Positions 24,596 to 57,184 of a stretch of 64,000 nt of DNA are shown here, one piece after another. Every line of letters starts with the position of its first letter. Position 1 is the first letter of the stretch. Under the pieces are notes generated by a model, which made no database searches, was not told the DNA's origin, and worked only from the letters and a program-made list of their open reading frames with translations. Origin of the DNA: Tenrec ecaudatus (lineage: Eukaryota; Chordata; Mammalia; Afrosoricida; Tenrecidae); NCBI RefSeq assembly GCF_050624435.1, contig NC_134546.1:78719700-78783699 (forward strand), read 5' to 3'. A program made the translations under genes and the position numbers.

Positions 24596-24659
24596 CTGGT
24601 TTGGGTGTGTGTACATCCTCAGGTGCTAACTCTATATCAGGAGAAGCATCTTTGATAGC
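24596..24659 (-). CDS. Module 1 exon A (64 bp)
   Basis: Phase 0 to 1, reading AIKDASPDIELAPEDVHTPK and then P plus one base. The acceptor is TTTCCTTTAG and the donor is CCAG/GTAAAT. It is one of eight A exons in the array; the ASPD...LAP...VH core is shared with the others. Confidence 0.75.
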
Positions 24660-24748
24660 CTAAAGGAAAACAAATCAAAGAGTATTAACAAATAAGGTAC
24701 ACAACCTGTAGTCTTAAGGTAAAAATGTGGAAATTTCACGTAAAATTA

Positions 24749-25307
24749 GAGAGGAGATGGGTCAGTCAGGGTGCGATGTAGTACCGATGAAGAACACAGC
24801 TTTCCCCCAGATCCTGGATGCTTCCTCCCCCAACTACCATGATCCAAATTCTACCTTGCAGGACTGTATAGGACAGAGGTTGTACACTGGTGCATATGGG
24901 AGCTGGAGGCACAGGGAATCCAGGGTGGACGATACCTTCAGGACCAAGGGTGTGAGGGGCGATGCTGGGAGAGTGGAGGGTGAGTGGGTTGGAAAGGGGG
25001 AACTGATTACAAGGATCCACATATGACCTCCTCCCTGGGGGACAGACAACAGAGAAGGGGGGGAAGGGAGATTCCGGATAGGGAAAGATATGACAAAATA
25101 ACAATCTGTGGATTATCAAGGGCTCATGAGGGAGGGGGGAGCGGGGAGGGAAGGAAAAAAACAGGAGCTGATGCAGAGGGCTTAAGTGGAGAGCAAATGC
25201 TTTGAGAGTGATTAGGGCAAAGAATGTACGGATGTGCTTTATACAAATGATGTATGTATATGTATGGATTGTGATAAGAGTTGTATGAGCCCCTAATAAA
25301 ATGTTAA
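24749..25307 (+). mobile_element. L1 3' end in the intron of exons B1-A1
   Basis: A 5'-truncated L1 (GGTCAGTCAGGGTGCGATG to CCCCTAATAAAATG). It has a short AAAATTA repeat on both sides (24742-24748; 25308-25314) and is absent from the paralogous unit-2 intron, which reads straight through. Confidence 0.8.
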
Positions 25308-25318
25308 AAAATTATTAC

Positions 25319-25347
25319 CTTCAGATGGAGAGTTTTCATCGTAGAAC
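25319..25347 (-). CDS. Module 1 exon B (29 bp)
   Basis: Micro-exon, phase 1 to 0, reading (G)STMKTLHLK. The acceptor is TGCCCTTTAG and the donor GAAG/GTAATAAT. Only about ten native intron bases separate the donor from the 3' end of an L1 insertion at 24749-25307. Confidence 0.72.
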
Positions 25348-25837
25348 CTAAAGGGCAAAAAGGACATAATCAATTGGGTGAGAATACGGCAAAAACTAGT
25401 CACACACATGCATGAGGAAAGAAGATCAAGCTGAATCCTCATACTGGGCCTTAGGAATGTGTAGCTTGCATGTTTGGGAGTGGCTGTTTGGTGCATTGGA
25501 TAAAAAAGAAACATGAACAAACCTGAATCCATCTAGAAATACTGAAGAAATCAAAAGGAACATAGGTTAAGTAAACATGGCAAGTAGATTTTAAAAGAGA
25601 GATTATGGTTTTAATCACAACAACTGAAAGCAAAAGTGTCCCTAAATCAATGTGGGCATGCTGATTGATGGAGACAAAGGTGCTCTCTAAGCTGAAGAGC
25701 AAACCATGACCCTGAGAAAAAGTGCGACAAATATAGTGTACATATGAAAACTAAGCTAATTGCACAGTTAGGGAAAGATGGCATAGCTGAAGGGCACCGT
25801 GATAATGACCACTTAATGAACACAGACATAATCTTAC

Positions 25838-26015
25838 CCACCCAAAGCCCACTGCCATGAAGTCAAGTCTGACTCATAGCAAGACGATCCCCAAGGCTGG
25901 ACATGTTTCTGGGCAGTTAGCCTGATCTTTCTCCCGTGGTGCAGCTAGTGGCTTTAGGACTTCCAGATAAACCTCTGACAGGCTGAAACTTTCTCCACAG
26001 TGCCACCAGGGCTGT
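25838..26015 (-). repeat. AfroSINE, first of pair, unit 2
   Basis: AAAGCCCACTGCCATGAAGTCAAG..CCACCAGGGCTGTGTAGG, antisense; paralogous to the unit-1 copy. Confidence 0.72.
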
Positions 26016-26211
26016 GTAGGCTTACTTATGGAGCTAGTTAAATTTAGCCCATTAAATCTACATAAAGGAAAACACATTGGATGCAATGAATCGAGAAAAT
26101 GTAGAGAGTAGCAGTATACAAATGGAGTAGCCCTATATCGCTATTCAGCGCTACAGCATCGTTTATAATTAAGAATATCTGAAAACTATTTGTTCAGTGT
26201 TGTTATTTTTT

Positions 26212-26397
26212 CTGTTTCTATGAGTTGATTACAACTCATAAGGAACCTAATGTCAGGTCATAAAAGGGATTTCACGTTGTAATTGTTTGGTTGCAGATTT
26301 CTACATCTTGTTTCTGTGGTGGCAATGATGGTTTCCAGTTGCTTACCAGCCAATTAGCAGTCAAGCACTTTGAAGCCCGGTAAAACCAGGGCTCCTA
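26212..26397 (-). repeat. AfroSINE, second of pair, unit 2
   Basis: TTTCTATGAGTTGATTACAACTC..GCAGTCAAGCACTTTG..ACCAGGGCTCC, antisense and degraded. Confidence 0.65.
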
Positions 26398-26965
26398 TAA
26401 TCATTGAAAACAAAGATGTGCGTATTATAAGATGATAGAAGACATGGTTACTCCGGAGCATGCGAACTCCATAGCGAAGTTTCAGGGAATCTCAGTAAGT
26501 GAACAACAGCATTGTGAGTGATGCACACTGATAGGAAGTATTCAGTATTTCTCTTCAGAAGGTGTGAGTCTGTTTACAACAGAATACATTAGTATTTAAG
26601 CACCTAAATTCAGACATAAGCAGTTGAGCAATCAGTACTGTGTCCCCATGGGCCATCTTTAAACCTCTACCTAATGTGCTCCTCTAGTCCCAGAGTTTGA
26701 CAATTTACCCACCGTTTAGTATCTACTCTCAAGTATATACCTTCTTTCTGCTACCCTACAAAAAAGAACGCCTCCAAACAGTCCTTGAAATCTACTTGCT
26801 GCTTTGGTTGGATGAAGAAAGCAAATACCTATTAAAATACTGGTTGGATTGTAGGTTACGTAAGAGAAGTCAACCCAAAGTGAGGTTTGCACTAAATGGT
26901 TCTGGAAAGTCAGAAGTAGGCTGAAGCCAAGAGACTCTCTGATTGACTTCTCTGTGCTTGTTTAC

Positions 26966-27202
26966 CTTTTCTGCTCTTTGGTTCTTCTGATCTCTCTGCT
27001 TTATCCATGTTGTGGACCGTTGTGTCTTCTGTTACAAGCACAACTTCAATATTGTCTCTTTCCTTTTCTTCTAAGGTCATCCTTCTACATTTTGTAGAGG
27101 TTGCCTGATTTGTGGTCTGTGATGGTGGCTTAAATGGATCATCAACGTCGAGTTTCCTGGTACGTTCTTGGCTCACCCGGGGAGAACCAGAATCTGGAAA
27201 AT
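26966..27202 (-). CDS. Module 2 exon C (237 bp, or 228 from the second acceptor)
   Basis: Phase 1 to 1, open. Two acceptors nine bases apart are present (CTTCAG before 27202 and TTCCAG before 27193). It reads DFPDSGSPRVSQERTRKLDV..., core CRRMTLEEKERDNIEVV, tail ERSEEPKSRK. Donor AAAAG/GTAAAC. Confidence 0.75.
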
Positions 27203-28717
27203 CTGAAGATACAATGTTCATTTATAAGAAGGTAAATAATAACATAAATATGACCAGCTTAGGTAAACAGAGATCATGCTTGAGTGCAGCAGTCACTTGT
27301 CTCCCTCTCCTTGACAAACGGTGGTCTTTTATGTCACACTGCATGGGACATGTTGTACACTTGTTCCCATGCATGTTGTACACTTGTTCTGGGGAAACCG
27401 TGTGCTTCCATCGAGTCACAGTAGGCTTCACAGTGACCAGAAGCACACTGGTCTTCATTTAGATAATCTTATTAGCAATTGTCATTCCTGTTGTTTAAAT
27501 AGTTTCAATTTTTCTGGGTTAGTTATTTGTGATCACTCAGCACATTCAATGATTTATTTTGTATTCAATGAAGTTTCCTTATTAATTCTCCCAGATTCAC
27601 ACTTTCTTCCTGATAACAACCCCTTGCCTCCACATTTCAAGCTTAACTATGCCTAACAGCCTGTTTTCTTTATTCTAGAGTCATGACTGTGTGCATGTCA
27701 GCCTTTTTGAAGATACTATTTTACATTTAAAAACTATTTTCATTACAGTGAGCTACCTTACTTCAGTACACCATCTTCCACAGTCATTAATTAACTTTTG
27801 AGAAAACAAAGTTAATTTACAAGAGAAGTAGTAGTCATTGGCAATCTACGTGCATCCATTTAAACATAGGGTAAGTCCAAACTGAGCCTAGCGGCAAAGA
27901 GTAACAACATGCTCTGATACAAGAAAATCATATAGTTAAAATCATGTTTTTTTTTTCTTTTTTGAAATCCAAATGTAAATATCATGAAGGTAAGTGAATG
28001 AGAATTACAAGCGACATTTCTTAGAATTTACACACATATTTAAATTTGTTTGGCTACTATTTCTGATATTGAAATAGGTCCAAGTGCCTGAACACAACCT
28101 TTGAGGAAGTCTACATAATAATGTATACCATAAAAGGATCCCATGGGTGAAGATTTGTAGAATCCATTATTTCAAAGGTGATGTAATAGACCGGCCCTGG
28201 GGAATGATTAATCACTTGACGCCCTTTATAAACACACATACCGCACACCACACTGCTTCAGCTAATGAGAAGATTTGACTGACAAGATCAACTCTTGGAC
28301 TCTACGGAAATGAAATAAACTTGAAACACACATGAGGCAGAGTAAGGTTTTGCTTCTGGTGAAGACAAGAATTCCAATCAGCATGGTCAAGCATCAGGAA
28401 AAACTCTTATAGAGTGCCATACTTCACATCTGCCATAATTAACAGCTGCTTATTTCCAAGCAGTGGAGAAATTCCAAACTTGGGAAGTAGGAAGCATACA
28501 AATTGCAGGATATGAGTCCATGCTTCCTGTGGTGAATACTTCCTCTTCTTCTGCCAGATACTTAGATCTGACATGAACAATGGCATTGGCATATGCATGA
28601 CTCATGCCAACTCTCTCAACTAAGTGAGCACAAAGAGAAATAAATACAAAAGAAGAATCCTGTAGACGTGTGTAATAAGTCATTTTAACAAAGTGAAATT
28701 TGTCTTGTGAAATTAAC
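27203..28717. other. Intron A2-C2
   Basis: Unit-derived intron sequence alignable to the other A-C introns, but lacking the older SINE. No other feature is supported. Confidence 0.45.
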
Positions 28718-28779
28718 CTGGTTTGGGTGTGTGTACATCCTCAGGCGCTAAGTCTGTCAGGAGAAGCATCTTTGATAGT
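28718..28779 (-). CDS. Module 2 exon A (62 bp, frameshifted)
   Basis: Homologous to the other A exons, but two bases are missing in the middle relative to exon A1, giving 62 bp instead of 64. The reading frame from phase 0 (TIKDASPDRLSA) then meets TGA. The donor is GTTAAT, weaker than the GTAAAT of A1. Skipping exons B2 and A2 together keeps the frame, because B plus A is a symmetric phase 1-1 pair; skipping A2 alone does not. Confidence 0.65.
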
Positions 28780-28879
28780 CTGAAAGGAAATTAAAACAAA
28801 GCATATTAACAAAGAAGGTATGCAACCTATAGTCCTTACGACAAAGTAAAAATGTGGAAGTTTTTCATAAAATTATTAC

Positions 28880-28908
28880 CTTCAGATGCAGAGTTTTTAT
28901 TGTAGAAC
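28880..28908 (-). CDS. Module 2 exon B (29 bp)
   Basis: Phase 1 to 0, reading (G)STIKTLHLK. Acceptor GCCCTTTAG, donor GAAG/GTAATAAT. Nearly identical to exon B1. It lies only about 660 bp after exon C3 because that intron has lost its SINE pair. Confidence 0.72.
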
Positions 28909-29567
28909 CTAAAGGGCAAAATGGATATAATCAGTAGGATGAAAATGTGGCAAAAACTAGTCACACACATCCATGAGAAATGAAGATCAAGCTGAATCCT
29001 CATACTGGGCTTTAGGAATGTGTAGCTTGCATGTTTAGGATTGTTTTTTTGGTGAACTTGTTAAAAAAGAAACATGACCAAATCTGAATCCATCACGAAA
29101 TGCTGAATGATAGGAATGTAGGATGAGCAAACATGCCAATAAGATGTTCAAGGAGAGATTATGCTTTCAATCACAGCAACTGAAAGTAAAAGTGTCCCTA
29201 AGCCATTGTGGGCATGTTGATTGATGGAGACAAAGGTGCTCTCTAGTCTGAGGGGCAAATCATGACTCTGAGAAAAAGCCCATCAAATGTGCTCCTCTAG
29301 TCCCAAAGTTCAACAAGTACTATATTCCCTCAAATATGTATCTGCTTTCTGCTACCCTACAAGAAAGAACGCCTTCAAACAGTCCTTGAAAGTTATTTGC
29401 TGCTTTGATTGGATGAAGAAAACAAATACCTAATAAATGATGTTTGGGTTGTAGGTTCCATAACAGCAGTAAACCCAAAGCAATTTTGCACAAAATGGTT
29501 TTTGAAAGTCAGAAGTAGACTAAAGCCAAGAGTGCAGACTCTGTCTGAGTTCTCTGTGCTTCTTTAC

Positions 29568-29795
29568 CTTTTCCACTCTTGTTGGTGTCTGATCGCTCTG
29601 CTTTCCATTGAACATCCATGCGAGTCTGCCCAGTTACAACATCCGTATTGTCCTTTTCTTTTTCTGATGAGGTCATCCTTCTATCTTTTGTAAATATTGA
29701 CATATTTCTGGTCTGTGATGGTGGTTTAAATGAATGGTCATCATCAGCATCCAATTTCTTGGAACGTTTATGGCTCACATTGGAAGAACGCAAAT
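29568..29795 (-). CDS. Module 3 exon C (228 bp)
   Basis: Phase 1 to 1, 76 codons, open. The upstream acceptor found in other C exons is destroyed here (CTTCAA instead of CTTCAG), so only the downstream TTTTCAG remains. It reads DLRSSNVSHKRSKKLDADDD..., core DRRMTSSEKEKDN, tail ERSDTNKSGK. Confidence 0.75.
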
Positions 29796-30069
29796 CTGAA
29801 AAATTTGAAGACAAAATGTTCATTTATGAGAAGGTAAATGATAATATAAATATGACCACTTTAGGTGAACACAAATCGTGTGTTAGTGAAACAGGACCAT
29901 GTCTTCGTCTCCCTGACAAATAGTGGTCCCTAATTCACATTGCATGTGGCCTGCTGCATTCTTGTTCTGGCGAGGCCCTATGTTTGCATTAAGTCAGATG
30001 AGACAACAGCTACCAATAATATGGTTGCTCTTCATTTAGAGAAACTTCTAATAAATTGTCTTTTGTTAT

Positions 30070-30103
30070 CTATCTATATCTATATAGATATAGATATAAA
30101 GAT
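30070..30103. repeat. Short (TATC)n/(GATA)n repeat
   Basis: TATCTATCTATATCTATATAG..ATATAGATATA in the A3-C3 intron. Confidence 0.7.
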
Positions 30104-30724
30104 ATTTAGTTTTAGTTATTTCAGATCACTCAGCACTTTCTCTTATTTGTTTTGTATTCCATGATAATTTCTCATTAATTTTGCCAGAATTCACACTCTT
30201 CTTATTAACAAATTCTATGTGTAAACATTTAAAGTTTAAATATGCCTAACATGTTATTTTGTATGTTTTGGAAACATGACTCTTTTGTTTTAGCCTTTTT
30301 GAAGATATTTCTTTAAATTTAAAAGATATTTTGATTTCAACAAGATGACCTGATTTCAATACACCAACTTCAAGGCTCATTATGTAACCTTTGGCTAAAC
30401 ATGACTTTATAAGAGAAATGATAATCTTTGGCAATCTTTTTCCACTTAAACATAGGGTAGGTCCAAATTGACACTAAACACAAAGAATAACAACATGCTA
30501 TGAAAGAAGCACATAATATAGTAAGAAAAAAAGCAATAAAACAATCTTTTTTTGAAACACCAAATGTAAATATCATAAAGGTAAGCGAAAGAGGGAAAAC
30601 CAAACCAAAACAAAAAATCCTAAAAAACTATGACGAAGAAGTAAAACTTTCAAGGCTGGTTCTTAGACACCATATCCAATTTATACCTTGGACACTGACT
30701 TGAGTTTCACTCACCAATCAGTTG

Positions 30725-30905
30725 CCTTCACCCTGATTTCAACTCATAGGACTCACCCATGTGTCAATGCAAAACTGGGTACCAGTGTTTCCAAAGGCTA
30801 TAACATTAGGGAAGTTTACCAACAGGCCCTTCATGGCCACTATGTGTATGTGATCCAACAAGTCTCTAAGGCAGTGAACAAAATTGCTTGTGCCACCCAG
30901 GGATT
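30725..30905 (-). repeat. Older SINE between A and C, unit 3
   Basis: CTCACCCATGTGTCAATGC..GTGTTTCCAAAGGCTATAAC..TTGTGCCACCCAGGG; same position as in units 1, 4, 5, 7 and 8. Confidence 0.6.
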
Positions 30906-30944
30906 ATAACATGTTAAACGATGATTGTAAAGTATGAGCTGAGA

Positions 30945-33439
30945 TCAGGTGATACCTAAAGCAAATGGAAATTGAGCAACACTATGAGCCAGTTTTCCGT
31001 CTACTGAGCATATATCCAGAAGGGGTAAGAAATAGATCATGACCAGTTGCCTGTACTGCAATGTTTATTGCAGCACAATTCACAATTTCAAAGAATTGGA
31101 AGCAACCTAAATGGATAAGAAAACTGTGGCACATACTCACAATGGTGTACCGCCCATCACTTAAAAGCACTCATGATGCCATGAAGCACATCAGTTCTTT
31201 GGAAGAGTTGGAGGACATTATGCTAAGGAAATTTAGGCAATCACAAAAGGTCAAATACAACATGAGTCCCTGCACAGTAAGTATAGGTTGAGGTATAGGC
31301 AGTCAGGATGTGGACAGACTAAACCCAAGGATGTACATGTTATTCCAACACAAAAGAAGAGAAAAGGGGAAGGGTGGGGGAGAAATATGAGTGGTGGGGG
31401 CATGAGAGAAGCAATGGCACTCGGGGAGCAGGGCACTAACCCACCCAGGAGGAGAGCATTGGTTTTATCTCCACAGGAATAGGAGTGTTCATGTGAACCC
31501 CATTGTGGCGCACCAAACTTTGAACAGAGTGGGCAATCAGAGTCAAATTAACACCCCCCCCTAGAATTATGTGCTACAGAGGAAAACATTAAACCTATCA
31601 GCTGGGGAGAGGGGCCAACATGCCACACCCACACAGAAGCAACCAAGAAGGAAAGACAGAGAATGAAGTTCTAGGCCCCGTATGGGCACACCAAGCCTGG
31701 AGGACAATGTTCCTGCATGGAGCTGCTAAGGCACAGAGAGGACTACAGAGCTGACAACAGTTCAAGACACGATGTCCCGTCACTGGAGCACACTGAGACA
31801 AAAGACAATACTGGAGACACAAGGCGGGGAGTTAGTTCAGTCTGCACACCCCACAGCAGGGAAAACCAAGAGGGAACACAACAGATCAGCAGTGGGAGCA
31901 AAGAAAAGACACTAAAATAGACTTCAGGCTTGGAGGGGCAGCCCCCAGAATTCCCCCAGGACCAGTGGGGAGACAGTCAAAAAAATCAGTGAACAGACCT
32001 GGACTTATGTATGTCTCCCCCCCTAGTTTTTATCTTTTTCCCTCCTTCTCTTTTAATTCAATCTTTTGTCTTCTCTTTTGTGTTGTCTCCATTACTCTTG
32101 GTTTTGCCTAACTATTCAAGATAGGCATGGGAAGCCAGCTTAATGAGAAAGCAATGGGATCCATGGTTCTTCAGGGACTTCGGGGGAGGAGCAAGTGGGG
32201 GAAGGGAGCAGTGAGCAAACGATGCCATAGACAGGAGAACACCTAGGAAGTGACCATCAGCAATGAGAAGGATGTAGAGATCCTGTGGGTTGTTGGAGCA
32301 ACAGCAATCTAGCTGAAAGGCAGTACTAAGGGAAAGAAGGGTGAGCATGAAGGTAGGATAGAGGAAAGTAAAAGGAAACAGAGGAAGATCTAGAAAGCAA
32401 ACCTGTGGATAGACGTATAAACATAGGTGTGTACATACATTCCATTCATTCATTCATAAATATAGAAGTATTGGCCTATGTCCATATATTTATATGGCAA
32501 TACAATGAGGCCGTACACGTACTTTGGGCCACTGCTCAAGCCTTGCCTCAATGCAGGATCACTTTATTCTAACAACCTGGCATTCTGTGATGTTCACCCT
32601 CCCTGCAAAATCACTATAGACAAAGTGGTGCATAAGCAAATATGATGAAGGAAGCGGTTGGTGCCAGGTTATCAAAAGATACAGTGTCTGGTGTCTTAAA
32701 GGCTTGAAAACAAGCATCCATGTAGCAGAAAAGCAACAAGCCCACATGGAAGAAGCACAGCAGCCTGTGCAATCATGAGGTATCATAGGAATAACAGCCA
32801 TCAGAAGACCCATAACAAACCAACCAACCAACCAGCCAACAAACAAAAACCTAATTGTTGAAACAAACTGGTTTGGCGCAGATACCTAAAGCCCTTTGTA
32901 GATGAAGGGGCATCCCCTCACAGAGAAGTCATAGGGAAGGCATGAGTCAACCAGGGCACACTAAAGCACCGATGAAACATACAATATTCCTCTGGTTCCT
33001 TGAGGCTTCCTCACCACCAGCCCCCAATATCATGACCCCAGGCCTGCTTTTCTCTGCTGGCTAAACTTGATCATGCATACACATACAGATAAGAAATAAG
33101 AAGAGCTCATAACACAAGGAATTCAGAAACAGAAATGGAAGTAAGGATACCAGGAGGGTAGGGGTAGGTCAGGAGAGGTGAAGGGGAAGGGGGAAACAGA
33201 CAGCAATGATGGACACATGAACACACATATATAATTTATCAAGGGCTCACCAGGGTGGGAAAGGAGGGAGGGAAAAAAAGGATCGAGTAGAAAGTAAATG
33301 TTTAGAAACTAATGATGGCAACTTATGCATATATATATGCTTGATACAATTGATATATGGGTTGTTATTAGAGCTGTAAGAGCCCACAAAAATGATCTTT
33401 TAATAAAAATATAATAAAAGAATAAAATATCAAATGAAA
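30945..33439 (+). mobile_element. L1 with ORF2 end and 2.1-kb 3' UTR, 17-bp TSD
   Basis: TSD TAAAGTATGAGCTGAGA at 30928-30944 and a two-mismatch copy at 33440-33456. The 5' part is the end of L1 ORF2: CTGAGCATATATCCAGAAGG, then a frame IAAQFTISKNWKQPKWI...LEELEDIMLRKFRQSQK with stop at 31289-31291. The rest, about 2.1 kb, is one continuous 3' UTR alignable to the ORF-less copies elsewhere. This copy ties the long tail to L1. It interrupts the unit-3 A-C intron. Confidence 0.8.
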
Positions 33440-34305
33440 TAAAGTGTGAGTTGAGAAACTCCAGATTCCCATGTTCTGTTTCAGTGAGACCAAGTGAGCC
33501 ATACCATTCTCATAACAATACAAAAGTGTCCGCTGTCATTTTTTACTTATTCTCTAATAAGTACAACATGGAGGTTTTCAGACACCACGTCATGCTTGAT
33601 AACACCAGATTTGAATAACTGATGACCTTTCTGAATTTGCATGCTTCTGTGAAAATTTTTTCAGCTTTCTTTTCTAAATAGCAATAGGTAAAACTGACTT
33701 AACCCAACCTCTGAGGAAGTCTACATAACATTGAATAGCATAAAGGGTCCCAAAGCTGAAGACATCTAGAATCTCTGATTTCAAAGATGGTGGAACAAAT
33801 AGTCACTAAGGAATGCAAAAGGACTTTCCCCCTTTATAAATACACCTACCACCCACCACACTGGGTCTGCTCATGAGGACCTTTGGTTGACAACATCATC
33901 ACTAGGGCAAAGCTAAAATGAAATAAGTTAAAGCACACTGAGCAAGTCAGGCTTTGCTTCTGGTGAAGATCAGAATTCCAAGGAGCATTTTAAAGTATTA
34001 GGAAAATTCTTTGAATTCCACATTTATCATCAGTGAATTTCTAAGAAATGTAGACATTCCAAACTTGGGGAGTAGGTGGCATACAAACGGAAAAATATGA
34101 GTTCAAGCTTCCTGAGGTGAATTCTTCCTCTTGTGCTGCCTGATATTTAGATGGAACATGAATAACAACATTGGCAAATGCATGACTTGTGTCAAATCTT
34201 GCTATGAAGTTTCCAAAACATGAAATAAGGAACAGGAATCGTGTCGGCATGTCAAGGAACTTAATATCTTTTTAAAGAAAGTTGGATACGCATTGTGCAT
34301 TTTAC

Positions 34306-34369
34306 CTGGCTTGGCTGTGGTTACGTCCTTGGGTGCAGTATCTTCATCAGAAGAAGCATCATGAGGCAC
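34306..34369 (-). CDS. Module 3 exon A (64 bp)
   Basis: Phase 0 to 1, open: VPHDASSDEDTAPKDVTTAK and then P plus one base. Acceptor CATTTCCATCAAG, donor CCAG/GTAAAA. It is the most divergent 64-bp A exon but keeps length and phase. Confidence 0.72.
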
Positions 34370-34471
34370 CTTGATGGAAATGAAAACAGGGGGATTAACA
34401 AATAAGGTTGACAACCTGTATTCGATTTAAAAAAAGGTAAAAATGTGGAACTTTTATATAAAAGTAATTAC

Positions 34472-34500
34472 TTTCACATGCAGAGTTTTCGTCGTAGAAT
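34472..34500 (-). CDS. Module 3 exon B (29 bp)
   Basis: Phase 1 to 0, reading (D)STTKTLHVK. Acceptor TTTCCTTTTAG. The donor is AAA/GTAATT, so the last exon base is A rather than the G of the other B exons, a weaker site. Confidence 0.68.
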
Positions 34501-46728: not shown

Positions 46729-46984
46729 CTAAAGCACAAATTGGACATAATCAATGGCATGTAAATATGACAAATCCTAATCTCACACATTCATGCATTC
46801 GTATCAATCTGAATCCTCATGCTGGGCTTTAGAAATATGTGACTTGCATGTTTGAGAATGGATGTTGGGTGCGTTTTTTACAAACACAATGTGAATGGAA
46901 TCTGAATCCACATTTAAAAACCGATGAAACGATAGGAACATAAATTAAGCAGTCATGCCATGAAGATTTTTAAATCGATAAAGG

Positions 46985-48195
46985 AGGCTAGGAAGGAAAA
47001 GTTTGTTTGAAGAGTGAAACAGAAGCAATTATACAATTAGGTTTGACATGAGTGAAATATAGAATCATATAACATATGATGTAATTCCCAAGTTTCAGCA
47101 AATTAAAAAGAAACAAAACATCAATCCCAAAAATCACAGGAAAAAAACACAAAGAAAATACAAATCCCAGCATAAGATATGGGCTCCCACTGAATTCTTG
47201 CCCAATTTAAGAACAATTAGTTTTGCCATCGTAACCCGGCTCAATCCTCACTTTCCTGAAATGATCACTGAACAAAAGAGTGATACGACAAAGTGTGGCG
47301 AAGAAAGGAGATGGTGTCTGGCTGTCAATGGGAATAGTGCCTGCATTCACACACGCATCCACCTAAGTGAGGAGTCAACTCAGTCCTCATGGAAGAAGCA
47401 CAGCAGCTTGGGTGATCCAAAGACTTCAATTCCAAAAATTGAGTATGGTGAAGAGAAAAGTATCTGAGCTAAAATTAAGAGCCCACAATTTGTAGAAGGC
47501 TATGGAGGGCAGAGGGAGGCCAAAACCCACCTGCAGAGTATCCAGTCAGACAGAACTGCTGGCAGATCCGCTCTGGTCAAAGGCAGAGTCCGGAGCAGCC
47601 ATACTCTCATGCAGAGACCATTGTAATCTTCATTAGGCTGGATCAGACATGACACTAGGCCTCTTTGATCTCACCATATACATGAATTGTTCCTGGTGCG
47701 AGCATCTCTTAGATGTTCCATGAGTGAGATTTCTAACCTGGCATCGTGAATGTTGACAGGAGTCTTCTTCCTCGCACCGTTATTTGTCTTTTTGGCATTA
47801 AACTATAATGATCTTTTTGTTACTGCCTTAGTGCGATTTGCTTTTATTGTCTTCTGTTGGGTTTCCCAAATGTGAACCACAGGAGGAGTGGGGGTATAAT
47901 GATAATAACAGATACAAGGCATTACAGGGATTGCAAGGGTAGAGCATGGGCATTAGGGTTGGAAAGGGGATTTCAGAAGTAAATAGGGAAGTGGAGTGAC
48001 AAAGGGAACATTAGAACTGATGCTGACTGCACGTCTCATTTTACAGGCGATTTACTCATGGGAGATGGGTGGGAGGATGCTCTAAGATAGATATAGTACA
48101 ATTCTACTTGATATGACTGAATGACAAGTATTGATTTGTATATTATGGCAATTGTGTGTCAATTGAAATATTCAGGACAAGTTCTATTATGATTA
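46985..48195 (+). mobile_element. Older L1 3' UTR in the C7-B6 intron
   Basis: Contains GAAAGGAGATGGTGTCTGGC, the AGTGAGGAGTCAACTCAG block, and a low-complexity ATGATAATAAC part; the tail is degraded. It aligns with 52222-53370 of the next unit, so both derive from one insertion before that duplication. Confidence 0.6.
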
Positions 48196-48489
48196 CAGGT
48201 GATCATTCTTTTACCTTCTCATTGAAAATAAAACAAAGAAGATTTCAAAAGTGAGATTATGTTTTCAATCACTGCAACTGAGAGTAAGACTGTCCATAAT
48301 CCACAATGGGCATATGCTGATTGATGGAGACAAAAGTCATTGTTAATCTGAGGAGCAAATCATGACCCTGAGAAAATGGATGTCAAATATGTGTATAAAT
48401 ATGAACAGCAAGTTCATTCTACAGTTAAGGAAAGATGACATAGCTATTGGTTTTAAATCATATCAAACAATGAGCAAGCACAGACCTAA

Positions 48490-48681
48490 TCATCCCCACA
48501 TAAACCACTGCTGTCGAGGCAATGGTGACTCGCTGTAAGAGGACGCCCAAGGGGGTAAATCTTATAGGGCACTGTTAGCCTGCTCTTTCCCCCTTGGTAC
48601 AGTCGTGGGCTTTGAACTGCCAAACTTACAGTTGGCAGCCTCAAGCAATCCCAACTGCCACCACGGCTCTTTAGGCCAACT
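48490..48681 (-). repeat. AfroSINE, first of pair, unit 7
   Basis: ATAAACCACTGCTGTCGAGGC..TGCTCTTTCCCCCTTGG..CCACCACGGCTCTTTAGG, antisense. Confidence 0.72.
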
Positions 48682-48867
48682 TGTAGGACCAGTTAAATCA
48701 AGGCCCTTGAATCTACATAAAGTAAGACAAATTGGATGCAATCAATCAACAATCTGTGCAGAACAGTAGAAATAAAATGGATTATCCCTGTTTCACTACA
48801 GACTGTCAGAGCACTCCTTAAAAATCATAATACATGTAAATTATTTATTCACTCTTGTTACTGGTGT

Positions 48868-49050
48868 ATGTTGCTGAGTAGATTGCAACTCATAATGACG
48901 ATACAGGTAGATGAGGGAAGGGCTTCCAAGACTGTACTTGTCATGGTTGCAAAGGACCACGTTTCCTCTGTGGAGAAACGATTGTTTCCAGTGTCTGTCC
49001 TGAGAAATAGCAGCCAAACTCTTTCAACCATGGTGCAACCAGCTCTCCAT
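48868..49050 (-). repeat. AfroSINE, second of pair, unit 7
   Basis: GTTGCTGAGTAGATTGCAACTC..AGCAGCCAAACTCTTTCAACC..CCAGCTCTCC, antisense. Confidence 0.65.
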
Positions 49051-49593
49051 TAGTCATGAAATGCAATGAAATTATTATTACCAGGTTAGAAAATACACAG
49101 TCACACCGGAGACAGGAATTTTACAGCAAAGTTTCAATGATTCTCATTAATATGGGAAAAAGCATTTTGAATTATGTAAAGTGACAACAAATCATTGAAT
49201 ATTTCTTTTCAGATACTTCTGATTTAGTTACATATGGAAACAGTCTCATTTACACTTCTAAATTGATACCTATAGTATCTTTACACCTGTAATCTAATGT
49301 GTTTCTCTGGTCTAAAAATTTCACAATCAACCCACTCCTTACCGTCTACCTTAAGGATGTATACACTTTCTACTAGCCTGCAAGGAGAACTCTTCCTTCA
49401 AATACTCGTAGCTATTTATTTGCTGCTTTAGTTAGATGAACCAAGTAAATACCACATAAAAGCGTGGTTGGAATGTAGGTTGCATAAGGAGAGTAAACTC
49501 AAGTCAAGTTTTGCACAAAACGGTTTGGGAATGTCCAAAGTGCACTGAAGTCAAGAAAGAGACTCTAGGATTGGATTCTCTGTGCTCGTTTAC

Positions 49594-49827
49594 CTTTTCT
49601 GCTCCTTTTGTATTCTGACGGCTCTGCTTTCCCCCGGTCATCGGCGGGAACATCACGAGTTACAAACTCGGCTCCAGTTTTGTCCTTTTCTCTTTGTGCT
49701 GTGGTCGTCCTTCCACATGTGGTAGATCTTGAGTGATGTGTGGTCGGTGCTGGTGGTTTAAATGGAGGCTCATGATCAACGTTTGACTTCTTGGGAATTG
49801 TTTGTCTCCCACTGGAAGAATCCCAAT
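49594..49827 (-). CDS. Module 7 exon C (234 bp)
   Basis: Phase 1 to 1, open. The nine bases between the two family acceptors are deleted, so CTTCAG joins directly to the core: DWDSSSGRQTIPKKSNVDH..., then CGRTTTAQREKDKTGAEFV, tail PSEYKRSRK. Donor AAAAG/GTAAAC. Confidence 0.76.
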
Positions 49828-50724
49828 CTGAAGACAAAACATTCACTTATTAGAAGGTAAATGTAACATAACTTTGACCTGCTTAGATAAATACACAAAT
49901 TCTTGCTTCAGTGAAACGGTCCCATGTCTTTCCCTTCCTGAAGAATAGTCTTCCTTTCTGGCATCCTGCCTATGGCAAATGGTATGGCTGCTCTGCTGAG
50001 GACTTGTGTTTGCAGTACATCAGACTAGACTCAGCAACACTCAACCACACAGGTGCTCCTGATTTAGATCAAAAGTTGTTACCAGTTTCCTTTCTTTTAG
50101 CCTATTTTTTTTTTCAGTTTTACTTACATGGGTTCACTCACAACTTTCCATTATTTATTTTGCATTCCAGGAAAGCTAGTTTATTAAGTCTACATGAATT
50201 GACATTCTTTCTTCTTAATAATAAAATTCATGCCCCCAAATTTAAAGCTCAAATATGCATGACAATATATCATGTATAATCTAGAAACATGACTTGATTT
50301 CATTTTTTAAGCCATTAATCAATGGGCTTCTTTTAATTGAAAGGCAATTTTCAATAGAATGAGAAGACTTTTCTTAAATGTACCATTTGCAACATTCATA
50401 TTTTAAACTTTAGTTTATATTCATTAATATATAAGCAAGACCATAACCTTTAGGAATCAGTGTTTCCATTTTAAGTAACGGATGTACAAGCTGACACTAG
50501 AGACCAAAAGTAGCAATATACTTGAAACAAGCAATTATTATAGAAAGAAAAATATTTTACTCTTTTTTGAAAAACCAAATTTAAATGATGTAAAAATAAG
50601 TGTAGAAATAAAGGACTGTAGATGTAATTTGAATGCATGTTTCCCAGCGCAACGTATTCATTTACACCCATACAATCTGGGGTGAAATAAAACAAACAAA
50701 CGACAAATGGGTTGAGTTCAAACT

Positions 50725-50905
50725 GTTTGAAAATTATGGAAACCCCGGGGACACATGTGAAAGCAGAAGTGTGCTCCAGTATTTTCCAAGGCAAGTGGAT
50801 TAGGCAAGTGTATACCCAAGCCCTTTAGGGTCATGCTGTGCCTGTGAACCACCAGTCTCTCAGTTAATGAACAAAAATGGTTGTGCGACCTGGCAATTAT
50901 AAGGT
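50725..50905 (-). repeat. Older SINE between A and C, unit 7
   Basis: ACACATGTGAAAGCAGAAG..GTGCTCCAGTATTTTCCAAGG..GGTTGTGCGACCTGG. Confidence 0.55.
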
Positions 50906-51770
50906 GAAAAATAATGATTCTCAAGTATGAGCTGAGAAATTCTTGATTCCCAAGATCTCTATCAGGGAGCCCAAGGGAGCCATACTATTCTCCTAACAAG
51001 ACAAAATGTCACTTGTTATTTTCACTGACATTCTCTGTCACTGCAGCATGGAGGTTTCAAACACAATCAGATGTCTAACAACATTGTCTTCAACTAGCTA
51101 TCAAACTTCTCAGTAGAAATGCTTGTATTTAACTGTTTTCAACTTTCATTTCTGATATACCAATAGGTATAACTGACCGACAAAAGCTCCCAGACACTCT
51201 AAATAATAGGGAATAGCATAAAGGGATCCTCATCCAGATGGTTTTCAGAATTGATTATTTCAAAGATTGTGTCTTCCCAATTGTCACTAAAGAATGATTC
51301 ATGACACATGTACCATACACCACACATGGTCAGCTAATGAGAAAATTAGTTGACTTTAGATCATCACTAGGAAAATACTAAAGGGAAATAAATTTAAAAC
51401 ACGCACAAGGAAGTAAGACATTGCTTCTGGTGAAGAACAACAATCCAGTGACCATTTTAGAGCATTAGGAAGAAATCTCAGCATTCCATAATTAACCTCT
51501 GAGAATTTCTTAGTAATATAGAATTTCAAACTAAGAATTTTAGGGAGTTAAAGCATAAAAAGGGGAAAAATAGGAGTTCAAGGTTACTGTGGTAAAAGCA
51601 TCCCCTTATGCTTCTAGATACCTTTTCCATGCATGAATAACAGCAATGCCCTATGTATGACTAATTTCAAATCTCGAACATTGGCTAAAAGTGAAATAAT
51701 TAAAAGACAAGACCTGTGAACATGTCGAGTAGCTCAATTTCCTTATTACAAAGTGTATTGTGTAATGTAC

Positions 51771-51834
51771 CTGAATTGGATGCATGTACTTCCTTGGGTG
51801 CTAACTCTTGATCAGGAGAAGCATCTTTGGTATC
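51771..51834 (-). CDS. Module 7 exon A (64 bp)
   Basis: Phase 0 to 1, open: DTKDASPDQELAPKEVHASN and then S plus one base. Acceptor TTTCCATTCAG, donor TCAG/GTACAT. Confidence 0.73.
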
Positions 51835-51940
51835 CTGAATGGAAATTAAAACAAGATGATTAATAGGTAAGGAACCTTTTATACAAACGTAGTCACCAAC
51901 AAAAGGTAAAAGTGCGGAAGTTTTATATGAAAGTTATTAC

Positions 51941-51969
51941 CTTTAAATGCCGATGTTTTGTTGCAGAAA
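51941..51969 (-). CDS. Module 7 exon B (29 bp)
   Basis: Phase 1 to 0, reading (V)SATKHRHLK. Acceptor GCCCTTTAG, donor AAAG/GTAATAAC. Confidence 0.72.
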
Positions 51970-52221
51970 CTAAAGGGCAAAATGGACACAATCAGTGGCA
52001 TGTAAATGTGACAAAACTAATCTCACACATTCATATGGATTCAGTATCAAGCCAAATCCTCATGCTGGGCTTTAGAAATGGGTGACTTACTTATTTGGGA
52101 TTGGGTGTTGGTTGTGTTTGCTACAAAAGCAACATGAATGAAATCTGAGTCATCTTTAAAAACTGAAGAAAAAATAGAAATATAGCACAGACAAACCTAC
52201 CATGAAGATTGCAAAAGTGAT

Positions 52222-53370
52222 CAGGAGGGAAAAGTATGTTTGGAGATTGAACCGGACGCAATTATATAATTAGGTTTGACATGCATGGACTATGGAATAA
52301 TATGACATATGATATAATTCGCATGTTCCAGCAAATTGAAGAAAGAAAACAAAAATCTGGGCTCACACTGAATCCTAGCTCCAACTTGAGAACAATGAGT
52401 TCTTACCTCATGGGCCGGCTCAGTACTCACCTACATGAAATGATCACTGAACACAGGGTCATACAGCAAAGGGTGGCAAAGAAAGGAGATGGTGTCTGGC
52501 TATCAATTGGAATACTGCCTGGGGTCTTAGAAGCTTGTACATTAACCAGCAGCCATCTAAGCGAGGAGTCAACTAAGCCCACACGGAAGAAGCATAGCAG
52601 TTTGTGTGATCCAAAGACATAAATTACAAAAACTGAGCATGGTGACGAGAAAAGTATCTGAGCTCAAATTAAGAGCACACAATTTGTAGAAGGCTATGGA
52701 GGGCAGAGGGAGGCCAAAACTCACCTGCAGAGTATCCAGTCAGACAGAACTGCTGGCGGATCCACTCTGGTCAAAGGCAGAGCCGGAGCAGCCTTACCCT
52801 CATACAGACCATTGTAATCTTCATTAGGCTGGATCGGATGTGGTACTTGGCCTTTGACCTCGCCATATACACGAGCTGAATTAGTTCTGAGTACAAACAT
52901 CTCAAAGACGTTCCATTACTGAAATTTCTTTCCTGACTTCTTGAATGTTGTGGGGGTCTTCTCCCTCGCACCCATTACTTATATTTTTGACTTGACCCTA
53001 TTACGATCTTATTCTACACCCTTTAGTGTGATTTATTTTCCATTGTCATCTGTTGAGTTTCCCAGATGTGAAGCGCAGGAGAGGAGGTAAAATGATAATA
53101 AGTGATATAAATGATGATAGTGACTGTTTGGGTAGGGGTGAGCATTAGGGTAAGAAAGGGGATTCGGGAGTAAATCATGAAAGCTGGAGGACAACGAGAG
53201 CAGTACAACTGATTGTGATTGCAGAACTCCATCTGAAGGCGAGTGACCCATGACAGGGGCTGCTGTAAGATGAATGTGCTGATTGTGCAAATGCTCTTGT
53301 TATGATTGAACGATTGAACTACTGAATTGTACAATATGTAAATTGTGCCCCAATAAAAACGTTGGAAAGA
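52222..53370 (+). mobile_element. Older L1 3' UTR in the C8-B7 intron
   Basis: Paralogue of 46985-48195, with a better tail: TGTACAATATGTAAATTGTG followed by CCCCAATAAAAACG. Flanking AAAAGTGATC (left) and AAAAGCGATC (right) look like a TSD. Confidence 0.65.
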
Positions 53371-53685
53371 AGGAACAAATTCTACTATGATTAAAAGCGA
53401 TCATTCTTTTACCTTCTCATTGAAAATAACACAAACAAGATTTCAAAGGTGGGATTATGTTTTCAATCACTGCAACTGAGAGTAAGACTGTCCATAATCC
53501 ACAATGGGCATATGCTGATTGATGGAGACAAAAGTCATAGTTAATCTGAGGAGCAAATCATGACCCTGAGAAAATGGATGTCAAATATGTGTATAAATAT
53601 GAACAGCAAGCTCATTCTACAGTTAAGGAGAGATGACATAGCTATTGGTTTTAAATCACATCAAACTATTAATGAACACAGACCT

Positions 53686-53876
53686 AATCATCCCCACATA
53701 AACCACTGCTGTCCAGGCAATGGTGACTCGCTGTAAGAGGACGCCCAAGGGGGTAAATCTTTCAGGGCACCGTTAGCCTGCTCTTTCCCCCTTGGTGCAG
53801 TCATGGACTCTGAACTGCCAAACTTACAGTTGGCAGCCTCAAACTATCCCAACTGCCACCACGGCTCTTTAGGCCA
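53686..53876 (-). repeat. AfroSINE, first of pair, unit 8
   Basis: ATAAACCACTGCTGTCCAGGC..CTCTTTCCCCCTTGG..CCACCACGGCTCTTTAGG; nearly identical to the unit-7 copy. Confidence 0.72.
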
Positions 53877-54057
53877 ACTTGTAGGACCAGTTAATCAAGG
53901 CCCTTGAATCTATATAAAGTAAGACAAATTGGATGCAATCAATCAACAATCTGTGCAGAACAGTAGAAATAAAATGGATTATCCCTGTTTCACTACAGAC
54001 TGTCAGAGCACTCCTTAAAATCATAATACATGTAAATTATTTATTCACTCTTGTTAC

Positions 54058-54250
54058 TGGTGTATGTTGCTGAGTAGATTGCAACTCATAATGACCATAC
54101 AGGTAGATGAGGGAAGGGTTTCCAAGACTGTACTTGTCATGGTTGCAAAGGACCACATGTTTCCTCTGTGGAGACACGATTGTTTTCAGTGTCTGTCCTG
54201 CGAAATAGCAGCCAAACTCTTTCAACCATGGTGCAACCAGGCTCCTTTAC
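54058..54250 (-). repeat. AfroSINE, second of pair, unit 8
   Basis: GTTGCTGAGTAGATTGCAACTC..TCTTTCAACCATGGTGCAACC..GGCTCCTTTACTC, antisense. Confidence 0.65.
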
Positions 54251-54811
54251 TCATTAAATAGGATAACATGGGTATTATTAGGTAATAAAATACACGATGA
54301 TGCTTGACAGAGGAACTGTATAGCAAAGTTTCAATGATTGCCATAAATATGGTAATAGCACTTTGAAGTATCAATGATAGCAAATCATTCTGTTTTACTT
54401 TTCAGATGGTGTTAATTTAGTCACACTGGAATGTAGTGGTATTTACAATTCTAAATTCAGACCTGAATAGTTAAGCAGTCACATTGGGTTTGAATATGCC
54501 ATCTCTAACCCTCCACCTAAGGTGCTCCTCTTGTCCCAAAGTTCACCAAGTAACCCACAATTTACTGTCTGCTGTCAAGTGTGAATACACTTTCTACTAG
54601 CCTCCAAGAACGCCTCCTCCAAATACTCCTAGCTATTGCTTTGCTGCTTTGTTTGGACGAAGAAAGCAAATAACGTGTAAAAGAATGGATGGGTTGCAGG
54701 TTGGATCAAGGGAGTCAATCCATAGCAAGTTTTGCACAAAATGGTTTGGGAACGTCATGTGTAGACTGAAGCCAAGAGAGGGACTCAGATTGGATTCTCT
54801 ATGCTTGTTAC

Positions 54812-55054
54812 CTTCTCTGCTACTTTTGCTTTCTGATGGCTCCGCTTTACTCTGGTCATCGACAGGATCATCCCGAGTTACAAACCCGGCTCCACTTTTG
54901 TCCTTTACTTTTCGTGCTAAGGCAGTCCTTCCACATTTTGCAGATGTTGAGTGACTTGTGGTCTGTGCTGGTGGTTTCGATGGAGGCTCATCATCAATGT
55001 TAGATTTCTTAGAAAGTTTTTGGCTCACACAGGCAGAATGCAAATCTGAAAACT
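54812..55054 (-). CDS. Module 8 exon C (243 bp, or 234 from the second acceptor)
   Basis: Phase 1 to 1, open from both acceptors (CTTCAG before 55054, TTTCAG before 55045). It reads EFSDLHSACVSQKLSKKSNI..., core CGRTALARKVKDKSGAGFV, tail PSESKSSRE. Donor GAAG/GTAACA. Confidence 0.76.
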
Positions 55055-55899
55055 CTGAAGACAAAATATTCACTTATGAGAGGTAAATAATAACATAAAT
55101 TTGACCAGCTTAGATAAATACACAAATTCTTGTTTCAGTGAAGCGGTCACGAGTCTTCCTCTCCCTGACAAACAGTCAGTCCTCCATGACAGCTCCCTGC
55201 ACTTGGCATGTGGTCTGCTTGCTCTACTGAGACCCTGTATTTGCGCTAGATCAGAACAGACTTAACAGCAACCAACAAAACAGGTACTCTTGATCTATTT
55301 AAGCTTACTAGAAGTTGTCTTTCTTTTTGTCTATACATTATTTGTTTTATGTCCCTGGGTTCACACAGAACTTTCAATTATTTAGTTTACATTCCATAAA
55401 ACTTTTCTATTAATGCTGCAAAGATTCACACTCTTTCTTCTTAGGAACAAAATATATGCCTACATATTTAAAGTTGCGTATGCATGAAAGTATATCATGT
55501 ATGCTCTAGGGACATGACTTTTTTAAAGCCATCAATCAATGTGCTATTTTAATTAAAATATTTTATTATATTTAAAAGACTTTTCTTAAATACACAATCT
55601 TCAAATTCATTTCTTAAGCTTTGGATAAGCATCACGAATATGTATGAGGTACCATTTAAAGATAGGGGAAGTACAAGTTGACACTAGAGCTAAAGAATAA
55701 TATTGTGCTAGGGAACAAGCCACTAATATAGAGAACATTTTTTTCTTTTACTGAAAATTTTATAAGTGAAAGAAAAACAACAACAACAACAAAACAAGAA
55801 TTGTAACAGTAAAGCTTTAAAGGATAGTTCCAAGTGCACAATATTCATTTTACCCCACGGGAAGCTGTCTAGGTTTCAATAGCCCAAATCTATTCTCTT

Positions 55900-56075
55900 C
55901 CAGGGCACTGCAATGATAGAAACCCAATGTGTGTCACAGCAGAACTTGCTCCAGGGCTTTAAAGGCTGCAACATGATGGAAGTCCATCAGCAGGCCCTCT
56001 GTGGCATCATATGGACAGGAGCCACCAACCTCTCAGTGAGGGAGCAAAAGTGGTTGTGCCACCCTTGGAACAATG
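55900..56075 (-). repeat. Older SINE between A and C, unit 8
   Basis: CCCAATGTGTGTCACAGCAG..TTGCTCCAGGGCTTTAAAGG..GGTTGTGCCACCC. Confidence 0.6.
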
Positions 56076-57000
56076 TGAAAGGATGTACATTTCAGAGGGT
56101 AACCTGGTGGTTCTAAAGTATGAGCTGAGAAACTCTGGATTCCCAAGATCTGTATCAGTAAGCCCAAGGGAGGCACGCGATTCTCACACCAACACAAAAT
56201 GTCATCAGACATTTTTACTTTCAGTCTCTTATAAGTACACAGGAAGGTTTTCAGCCACCATGCAATGTTTGATGGTGTCATATTCTAGGAATCAATGACA
56301 TTTCTGAGTAGGTTTGCTTGCATTTAAACTTTCTCAGCTCCAGTACTACCATAGCAGTAGGCATAACTGGCTTCAACAAAAGTTTCTCGGTAAGTCTAAA
56401 TAATAGTGAATAGCATAAAGGATATTCTAAGGCTGATCCTACGGCTGAAGATTAGAATGAATTCTTTCATAGACTGTGTCTCTCAAAGAGCGACTAAGAA
56501 AGACGAACAGTTTCCCCGCATTTTCAATCCATGTACAATACAGCACACAAGGTCTGCTGAGGAGGACATTTGGTTGACTTCTGATCATCACCATGACAAT
56601 ATTGAAATGAAATCAAGTGAAAACACACACAAACAAGTAAGGCTTTGTTCCTGGAGAAGATCAAAGTTCAGTGAACATTTAAAAGCATCAAGAAAAATTC
56701 TCAGCATTCCATTGTTAACATCTGTTCATTTATAAGAAATTAGGATATTCCAAACTAAGCAATTTAGGGGTATAAAGCCTACAAATGGAAAAATGAGTTC
56801 AAGCTTACTATGGTAAAATCTTTTCTCAAACTTCTAGATCTTTTTTCAAACATCAATAACAACATTGATATGTGCATGACTTATGTCAACTTTTCAACTG
56901 CATTTGCAAAAGTGACATAAATCAGAAACCAGAATCCTGTGAACATGTCAAAGAGCTTCATATCCGTGTTCGTAAGTGAAATGTGTATCATGCACCGCAC

Positions 57001-57049
57001 CTGACCGGGATGTGTCCACATCCTGGAGTACTAAGTCATTAGCAGCAGT
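57001..57049 (-). CDS. Module 8 exon A, short form (49 bp)
   Basis: Phase 0 to 1, open: TAANDLVLQDVDTSRS plus one base. It is 15 bp (five codons) shorter than most A exons and equals exon A9 in length. Acceptor TTCCCATTCAG, donor TCAG/GTGCGG. Confidence 0.65.
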
Positions 57050-57155
57050 CTGAATGGGAATAAAAACAAGAGGAGTAACAGTTAAGGCACATTTCATACA
57101 ATCTGTAGTCACTAACTAAAGGAAAAACTCTCAAGTTTTATTTTAAAGTTATTAC

Positions 57156-57184
57156 CTTCAAATGTAGTTTATTCACAGGAGAAT
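57156..57184 (-). CDS. Module 8 exon B (29 bp)
   Basis: Phase 1 to 0, reading (D)SPVNKLHLK. Acceptor TTTTGCCCTGTAG, donor GAAG/GTAATAAC. It is the most upstream B exon found. Confidence 0.7.

Follow-up and report, generated by a model that had tools for sequence, protein, structure and literature searches.

Eight tandem copies of a three-exon block with a conserved reading frame in a predicted ANKRD26-family gene of Tenrec ecaudatus

How did three small exons come to stand eight times over in what appears to be a single gene of Tenrec ecaudatus, and what has been kept in the copies since? The window analysed here, a stretch of 64,000 nucleotides, had been described in a first-pass annotation as carrying eight tandem copies of a cassette of exons B, A and C on the minus strand. 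We located eight exons of each type, which retain this serial order. The interval then assigned to the array, 24596..57184, stops at A1 and leaves C1 about 6 kb outside. When profiles built from the array copies were run against the whole window with nhmmer, eight C regions and eight B-A regions were recovered, B1-A1 in two pieces because an insertion splits it, and every further match had an E value of at least 0.2. The insertion (24746-25305, between B1 and A1) is a repeat that has related copies at other places in the window, and among the cassettes is private to cassette 1. Self-BLAST showed that the introns are repeated along with the exons over about 17.4-57.5 kb, from some 315 bp before B8 to about 1 kb past C1. 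The name B-A-C is apt and fits the ends of the array, but what was copied were whole segments with their introns, not exons alone. The array and its exons are as follows.

17441..57499, minus strand: whole repeated array including introns (self-BLAST limits)
57156..57184, minus strand: exon B8, 29 bp
57001..57049, minus strand: exon A8, 49 bp, with an in-frame 15-nt deletion
54812..55045, minus strand: exon C8, 234 bp (243 bp from the outer acceptor)
51941..51969, minus strand: exon B7
51771..51834, minus strand: exon A7, 64 bp
49594..49827, minus strand: exon C7, 234 bp
46700..46728, minus strand: exon B6
46530..46593, minus strand: exon A6
43918..44151, minus strand: exon C6
42242..42270, minus strand: exon B5, identical to B4
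42077..42140, minus strand: exon A5
39959..40192, minus strand: exon C5, 97% identical to C6
38338..38366, minus strand: exon B4
38169..38232, minus strand: exon A4
36035..36268, minus strand: exon C4
34472..34500, minus strand: exon B3
34306..34369, minus strand: exon A3
29568..29795, minus strand: exon C3, 228 bp
28880..28908, minus strand: exon B2
28718..28779, minus strand: exon A2, 62 bp, with a frameshift and an internal stop
26966..27193, minus strand: exon C2, 228 bp
25319..25347, minus strand: exon B1
24596..24659, minus strand: exon A1
18457..18690, minus strand: exon C1, 234 bp, outside the interval first assigned

The lengths and phases originally reported hold throughout. B measures 29 bp in all eight copies and A 64 bp in six, the exceptions being A8 (49 bp) and A2 (62 bp). 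Read from its inner acceptor, C is 234 bp long in six copies and 228 bp in C2 and C3; an outer acceptor 9 nt upstream in C8, C6, C5 and C2 gives 237-243 bp. Every C length is a multiple of three. B runs from phase 1 to 0, A from 0 to 1 and C from 1 to 1, and both modules, BA and C, begin and end in phase 1. Joined together, the eight cassettes amount to 2587 nt, or about 862 codons, in the nearly single frame that had been claimed, interrupted at A2 only. There, a 2-nt deletion produces a stop within the exon, and A2 truncates any transcript that contains it. The remaining 23 array exons are open, and omitting B2 and A2 as a pair leaves a stop-free sequence of 2496 nt (832 codons).

The B, A and C exons look real, since their splice dinucleotides are canonical in 48 of 48 cases, whereas well-aligned intronic AG and GT controls were kept in 334 of 723 and 324 of 731 (44-46%). 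The conservation of acceptors and donors noted earlier is thereby confirmed. Among pairwise indels, none of 14 in exon C departs from a multiple of three, as against 550 of 648 in four flanking intron sets. The eight C copies contain no stop where neutral drift would be expected to leave 11-15, and only one of 8000 neutral simulations of C ended stop-free. We also aligned the eight units over 11,370 columns and scanned the result for AG..GT intervals present in all eight, equal in length modulo 3 and sharing an open frame. This unbiased scan returned four intervals: B, C and two others that lie inside C. A is missing from the output because the length of A2 differs modulo 3, and no fourth conserved exon per unit was detected by the same scan. 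The conservation of B and C across the units is not due to chance.

As to the gene in which the array lies, one exon downstream is informative.

5741..6676, minus strand: coiled-coil exon, CCDC144C, 312 codons, stop-free (Pfam)

This exon matches PF14915 (CCDC144C) with an E value of 1.4e-70 and 238.9 bits against a cut-off of 35, and by this coiled coil the gene is therefore assigned to the ANKRD26 family, to which ANKRD30 and CCDC144 also belong. The link to ANKRD26 drawn by the first-pass annotation stands at the level of the family, where the fit of B and A to adjacent places also favours it; identity with ANKRD26 itself is unsupported, the coil exon being 41.5% identical to human ANKRD26 (an unverified protein sequence, used in all comparisons below). 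Against that sequence B falls on residues 489-498 and A on 502-522, adjacent, three residues apart and in family order, placements matched by 17 and 4 of 2000 column shuffles, respectively. On the other hand, an ungapped joint B+A profile did no better there than shuffles (325 of 2000), B1+A1 alone found its best place elsewhere (79 of 2000), and the full profile of exon C found no match (428 of 1000 shuffles equally good).

Further searches returned no relatives. In a database with apparently few or no mammalian proteins, no homologous protein was found either for the joined cassettes 8-3 (8000 candidates scored, E up to 1) or for a 310-codon query from the coil exon (1561 candidates, threshold E 0.001). 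The coil reading frame had no match by sequence in the PDB at E up to 0.01, and the two-cassette peptide of cassettes 5 and 4 reached the cut-off of no Pfam family. Pattern searches of viral contigs gave 3 and 140 stretches, none of which was confirmed.

The explanation that we favour, and consider probable, is that the array is a tandem-duplicated exon block, expanded to eight units by exchange, whose frame has been kept by selection as a variable-length spacer while its residues evolved near neutrality. An ancestral minus-strand gene of the family would have carried B, A and C as single exons, and a multi-kilobase segment holding all three with their introns would have been duplicated in tandem, the number then being raised to eight by subsequent exchanges between introns that share a phase. 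The introns that join A to C and C to B are both of phase 1, and therefore the frame survives any number of units as well as the removal of a BA pair or a C. The array would be transcribed, and ahead of the coiled coil its spliced product may carry some 830 residues of repeats that are polar and probably disordered, A2 being tolerated through skipping of B2 and A2. FoldIndex is negative for the repeats and likewise for the coil exon, and hence offers no proof of disorder. Selection would have retained the splice sites and kept the frame open, since any interruption would deprive the product of the coiled coil downstream, with the residues left nearly neutral, and exchange between cassettes would partly homogenise the array.

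Alternatively, the cassettes might be used one or a few per transcript, in a mutually exclusive or tissue-specific manner, yielding isoforms instead of one long repeat protein. The phase-1 symmetry of both modules would permit this, and human ANKRD36C is reported to have three groups of mutually exclusive exons (PMC5740500). However, the splice sites are canonical and joint inclusion is compatible everywhere except at A2, and we regard such use as unlikely.

The gene, or this paralogue of it, could also be a recent pseudogene whose array coded for most of its history and has kept its frame for want of time. Beyond the array we noted two candidate features.

59411..59483, minus strand: candidate upstream exon E, 73 bp, ending in phase 1 and joining B8 in frame (splice sites and phase)
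57806..57844, minus strand: possible relic of the exon lying ahead of B in human ANKRD26, with an in-frame stop (weak match, E 22)

The best score of 57.2-64 kb against the ANKRD26 linker was 43, within the range of 60 shuffles (95% at 45), so that exon E is proposed from its splice sites and phase. No ankyrin repeats were found on the minus strand of 57.2-64 kb, and the 5' end of the gene lies outside the window. A large exon-like stretch at 12.0-12.9 kb contains one frame switch. Three-frame Pfam searches of the minus strand over 1-5.7, 6.7-18.4 and 57.2-64 kb gave no family at cut-off, coiled coil and ankyrin included. ARAGORN found no tRNA and Rfam no match at the gathering score; an unverified SINE sequence gave one weak match (E 1.7e-4). 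Considering the break in A2, the frame switch, the stop in the possible remnant upstream of B8 and the lack of any further coil or ankyrin exon in the stretches searched, the gene may be newly dead or rearranged. The pseudogene explanation has to contend, however, with 23 array exons and a 312-codon coil exon that are open, with the intact splice dinucleotides and with an in-frame bypass of A2, and we give it little credence.

We found that the openness of the frame has been under selection, and that the residues have not detectably been so. dN/dS among the copies is about 1; the free codon model (lnL -1308.35) is matched closely by omega 1 (-1308.68), with -1320.51 at omega 0.5 and -1309.32 at omega 1.5. 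A dN/dS of 1 could equally mix constraint and positive selection. Diversification of the repeats by positive selection, for example at a binding surface that keeps changing, interspersed with conserved anchors, would account for second codon positions being the most divergent (0.306, vs 0.251 at third positions) and for 11 hypervariable columns of 77 where omega 1 predicts 4.7 (95% at 8). Yet mean identity, variance and the count of invariant columns are consistent with omega 1 and an open frame, and omega 1.5 fits no better than omega 1; we judge this explanation somewhat less probable than the two preceding ones. A stricter form of the spacer explanation is that the array is a coding spacer selected solely for openness and frame, composed of the phase-1 modules BA and C, whose length exchange can alter in steps of some 109 residues and whose residues evolve neutrally; this we put forward tentatively, as a possibility.

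Exchange between cassettes is pointed to by two groups of units in the trees, a tract common to neighbouring cassettes and a sharp switch of best match.

41600..44110, minus strand: tract matching 37.7-40.15 kb, by conversion or late exchange (sequence comparison)
37051..37650, minus strand: switch between groups of units, in the A4-C4 intron (sequence comparison)

The tract, about 2.5 kb long, is 97-100% identical over some 600 bp at its exon-C end and 84-97% over the remainder, with a boundary close to the 5' end of exon C. Near 37.35 kb, units of the 5' group give way to those of the 3' group as best match. The two groups appear in both trees, BA4 standing with units 5-7 and C4 with units 1-3, and C6 and C5 are sisters downstream of C (support 100); upstream of it they are not, and the competing nodes there have low support (71 and 59). 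That the copied unit might be C-B-A was considered on the strength of the placements of BA4 and C4 and dropped: the array ends fit B-A-C, and the same placements are equally expected if BA5 overwrote BA4, the high-identity tract ending nearby. An assembly artefact, in which a single unit was repeated by error, could invoke the 600 bp of near-identity between cassettes 6 and 5, but is hardly credible given that pairwise differences average 26-34% in every one of the seven regions compared, exonic and intronic, even if a few pairs of copies (C6/C5, BA5/BA4, A2/A1 and A7/A6) lie close together, and that cassette 1 carries its private insertion.

Arrays of this kind are already known. As described in PMC4378929, LPA kringle IV type 2 is an in-gene tandem repeat whose unit spans about 5.5 kb and contains two exons, of 160 and 182 bp; it shows little variation, numbers from 1 to more than 40 copies, and has variants common to copies that are attributed to duplication or conversion. 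The tenrec array resembles it in its kilobase unit, its several phase-compatible exons, its in-gene tandem arrangement and its exchange between units; unlike the little-varying kringle domain, however, the tenrec copies are divergent and their peptide is polar and probably unfolded. NBPF genes likewise amplify Olduvai coding units (about 1.6 kb, in triplets) in tandem within the gene, but belong to a different family, and the peptide of cassettes 5 and 4 has no Pfam domain at cut-off. With the ANKRD26 family (ANKRD26, ANKRD18/20, ANKRD36/62 and POTE; PMC4141111, PMC5740500) the tenrec gene has in common the CCDC144C coil exon, small linker exons like B and A, and a history of duplication. Unlike the array, human ANKRD26 has a single good match for B, another for A, and none for C. 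The first-pass annotation knew of no description of this three-exon unit; likewise, the eightfold B-A-C array in the ANKRD26 family is undescribed among the literature matches listed.

According to PMC4141111, the ANKRD26 family comprises many mammalian paralogues with a history of duplications. If expressed, the array would show this duplication-prone family lengthening a protein by symmetric phase-1 modules, and would make it possible to test directly if the length of a linker is by itself under selection. Eight old and divergent copies of an exon block within one gene allow selection on the frame to be separated from selection on the residues without recourse to other species. Should the spacer reading be true, it would constitute a clean natural case of selection for length and openness without selection for sequence.

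Exons B, A and C, three small minus-strand exons, recur eight times in that order; each set with its introns forms a cassette, numbered from 8 (5') to 1 (3'). Profiles built from the copies and searched with nhmmer recovered eight regions for C and eight for B-A across the window, with B1-A1 divided by an inserted repeat; all other matches had E values of at least 0.2. This confirms the ordered copies reported in the first-pass annotation, as well as its exon lengths: B measures 29 bp in all eight copies and A 64 bp in six, the exceptions being A8 (49 bp) and A2 (62 bp). From its inner acceptor, C is 234 bp in six copies; the other two, C2 and C3, measure 228 bp. C8, C6, C5 and C2 have a second, in-phase acceptor 9 nt upstream. 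The annotation had placed all cassettes within 24596..57184, which holds as far as A1, where that interval ends, but not for the eighth C exon:

18457-18690, minus strand, exon C1, beyond that interval

Self-BLAST of the window showed that introns were duplicated along with the exons. Units resemble one another from 57499, some 315 bp ahead of B8, to near 17441, about 1 kb past C1, giving an array of about 40 kb whose inner units measure 2.6 to 8.5 kb from one C to the next.

Exon B is entered in phase 1 and left in phase 0, A runs from 0 to 1 and C from 1 to 1, which makes both BA (B and A joined, 93 nt) and C symmetric modules of phase 1. As first proposed, the eight cassettes (2587 nt) read in one frame, the sole break being A2, which carries a 2-nt deletion and an internal stop. 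Dropping B2 and A2 as a pair leaves 2496 nt, or 832 codons, with zero stops.

Several observations bear on whether these exons exceed chance. Splice dinucleotides are canonical at all 48 array sites; in an intronic control, made of the AG and GT sites of unit 5 aligned in at least six other units, AG was retained in 334/723 cells and GT in 324/731. None of 14 pairwise indels in exon C (28 pairs) departs from a multiple of three, and 550 of 648 do so in the four intron sets flanking exons, these counts sharing history and being non-independent. The eight C copies contain zero stops; neutral drift on the C tree, simulated 1000 times from each extant copy, produced means of 10.9-15.0 stops and one stop-free run in 8000. 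Moreover, an exon-blind scan, which asked for AG..GT intervals that all eight units share, with lengths equal modulo 3 and a common open frame, picked out four: B, C and two within C. Exon A was missed because of A2.

On the other hand, the residues of C appear hardly constrained. Pooled pN is 0.280 and pS 0.267 (ratio 1.05; individual pairs 0.63 to 1.66). Codon-model log-likelihoods were -1308.35 with omega free, and -1308.68, -1309.32 and -1320.51 with omega fixed at 1, 1.5 and 0.5, the fixed-omega runs also holding kappa at 2; inter-copy exchange breaks the underlying tree assumption to some degree. Compared with what omega 1 predicts when stops are disallowed, mean column identity was 0.481 (expected 0.473, sd 0.027), invariant columns numbered 5 (6.0) and hypervariable columns 11 (4.7, 95% at 8). 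Therefore, frame and splicing have been retained and residues have varied with roughly the freedom of silent sites; given the surplus of hypervariable columns, some positive selection could also have acted.

Two groups of units emerge from both trees. In the C tree, {8,7,6,5} is split from {4,3,2,1} at 100, with weaker inner nodes (49-90), and the BA tree yields {7,6,5,4} and {3,2,1} at 100, with BA8 outside both. BA4 thus belongs to the 5' group and C4 to the 3' group, and 300-bp windows place a sharp switch near 37.35 kb, within the A4-C4 intron. This may reflect either a later expansion with a junction there or BA5 sequence overwriting BA4. In a gene with a single B-A-C set, the first duplication would have had to carry B-A-C, with which the array ends agree. 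A copied unit ordered C-B-A was considered and dropped, since overwriting of BA4 would yield the same grouping. A tract is common to cassettes 6 (about 44.1 to 41.6 kb) and 5 (40.15 to 37.7 kb): identity is 97-100% over some 600 bp starting with exon C and 84-97% across the remainder, against 58-80% and 63-77% in the stretches on either side. Sequence downstream of C makes C6 and C5 sisters at 100; upstream sequence does not, although the competing nodes there are weak (71, 59). We read this tract as the product of conversion or a late exchange, bounded on one side close to the 5' end of exon C. The introns downstream of C7 and C8 (47180-49276, 52358-54471) are 84% identical over 2.1 kb, closer than the majority of unit pairs in the self-BLAST, and may mark an older exchange. 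Averaged over pairs, copies differ by 26-34% in every one of the seven regions compared, exons and introns alike. Mammalian DNA accumulates about 2e-9 substitutions per site per year, and from these values we infer that the oldest duplications date to roughly 50-90 million years.

Other repeats lie in and around the array. A tandem array (20554-21753; 439-bp unit, 2.7 copies, 97% matches) occupies the A1-C1 intron, and a dispersed repeat of about 560 bp occurs between B1 and A1 (24746-25305) and, at 77-88% identity to that copy, at 4736-5316 and 15677-16230. A perfect (AT)40 run covers 58569-58648. The stretch 58715-58814 weakly matches an afrotherian SINE (68% over 101 bp, E 1.7e-4), the sole match at E ≤ 0.001 among eight SINEs compared.

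Two further features concern gene identity:

5741-6676, minus strand, coil exon downstream of the array: 312 codons, no stop, acceptor TTAG, donor GTAAGT
59411-59483, candidate exon E upstream of B8: AG and GT sites, joins B8 in phase

The ORF of the coil exon matches CCDC144C, the Pfam coiled-coil domain of the ANKRD26 family (E 1.4e-70), and the exon shares 41.5% identity with a provisional human ANKRD26 sequence across 330 aligned positions. In that provisional sequence the best B and A matches are adjacent and in the right order (equalled by 17/2000 and 4/2000 shuffles). Weighing against this, a joint ungapped B+A profile did no better than shuffles (325/2000), the two matches being three residues apart, and B1+A1 alone matches a different place (79/2000). 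Exon C has no match there (428/1000 shuffles as good), and candidate exon E scores no higher against the linker of that sequence than shuffles do. The coiled coil supports the proposed ANKRD26-family assignment. Since the family has expanded in mammals into four groups (PMC4141111), the gene could equally well be a paralogue or ANKRD26 itself.

Of the 24 array exons, 23 are open, as is the coil exon. Signs against an intact gene include the A2 lesion and a stop in a possible upstream remnant (57806-57844), which resembles the exon before B in the provisional ANKRD26 sequence at a chance-level E of 22. A further stretch is exon-like:

12027-13030, minus strand, large open stretch of 242 + 101 codons in two frames overlapping near 12.3 kb

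It matches no Pfam family at cut-off and looks like a single real exon with one frame switch within 12.0-12.9 kb, which also counts against an intact gene. So does the result that Pfam recognised no other coiled-coil exons on the minus strand at 1-5.7 and 6.7-18.4 kb. A recent loss of gene function is conceivable.

Multi-exon, kilobase-scale units repeated within a gene are also seen in LPA, whose kringle IV-2 units (5.5 kb, two exons) number 1 to >40 (PMC4378929); NBPF arrays are further known relatives of this kind. For ANKRD36C, three clusters of mutually exclusive exons are reported (PMC5740500). The literature matches listed include no description of the B-A-C array, and a database model of the gene may exist.

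K, S, D, T and P abound in the array peptide (147 K+R and 138 D+E among 832 residues), and its FoldIndex is negative in 774 of 782 51-residue windows; the coil exon is negative overall too. The array would be transcribed with many cassettes included. In the simplest reading it would act as a flexible linker joining an unseen ankyrin part to the coiled coil. A frame break would then be harmful by costing the coiled coil, and the linker sequence itself would be nearly free to vary.
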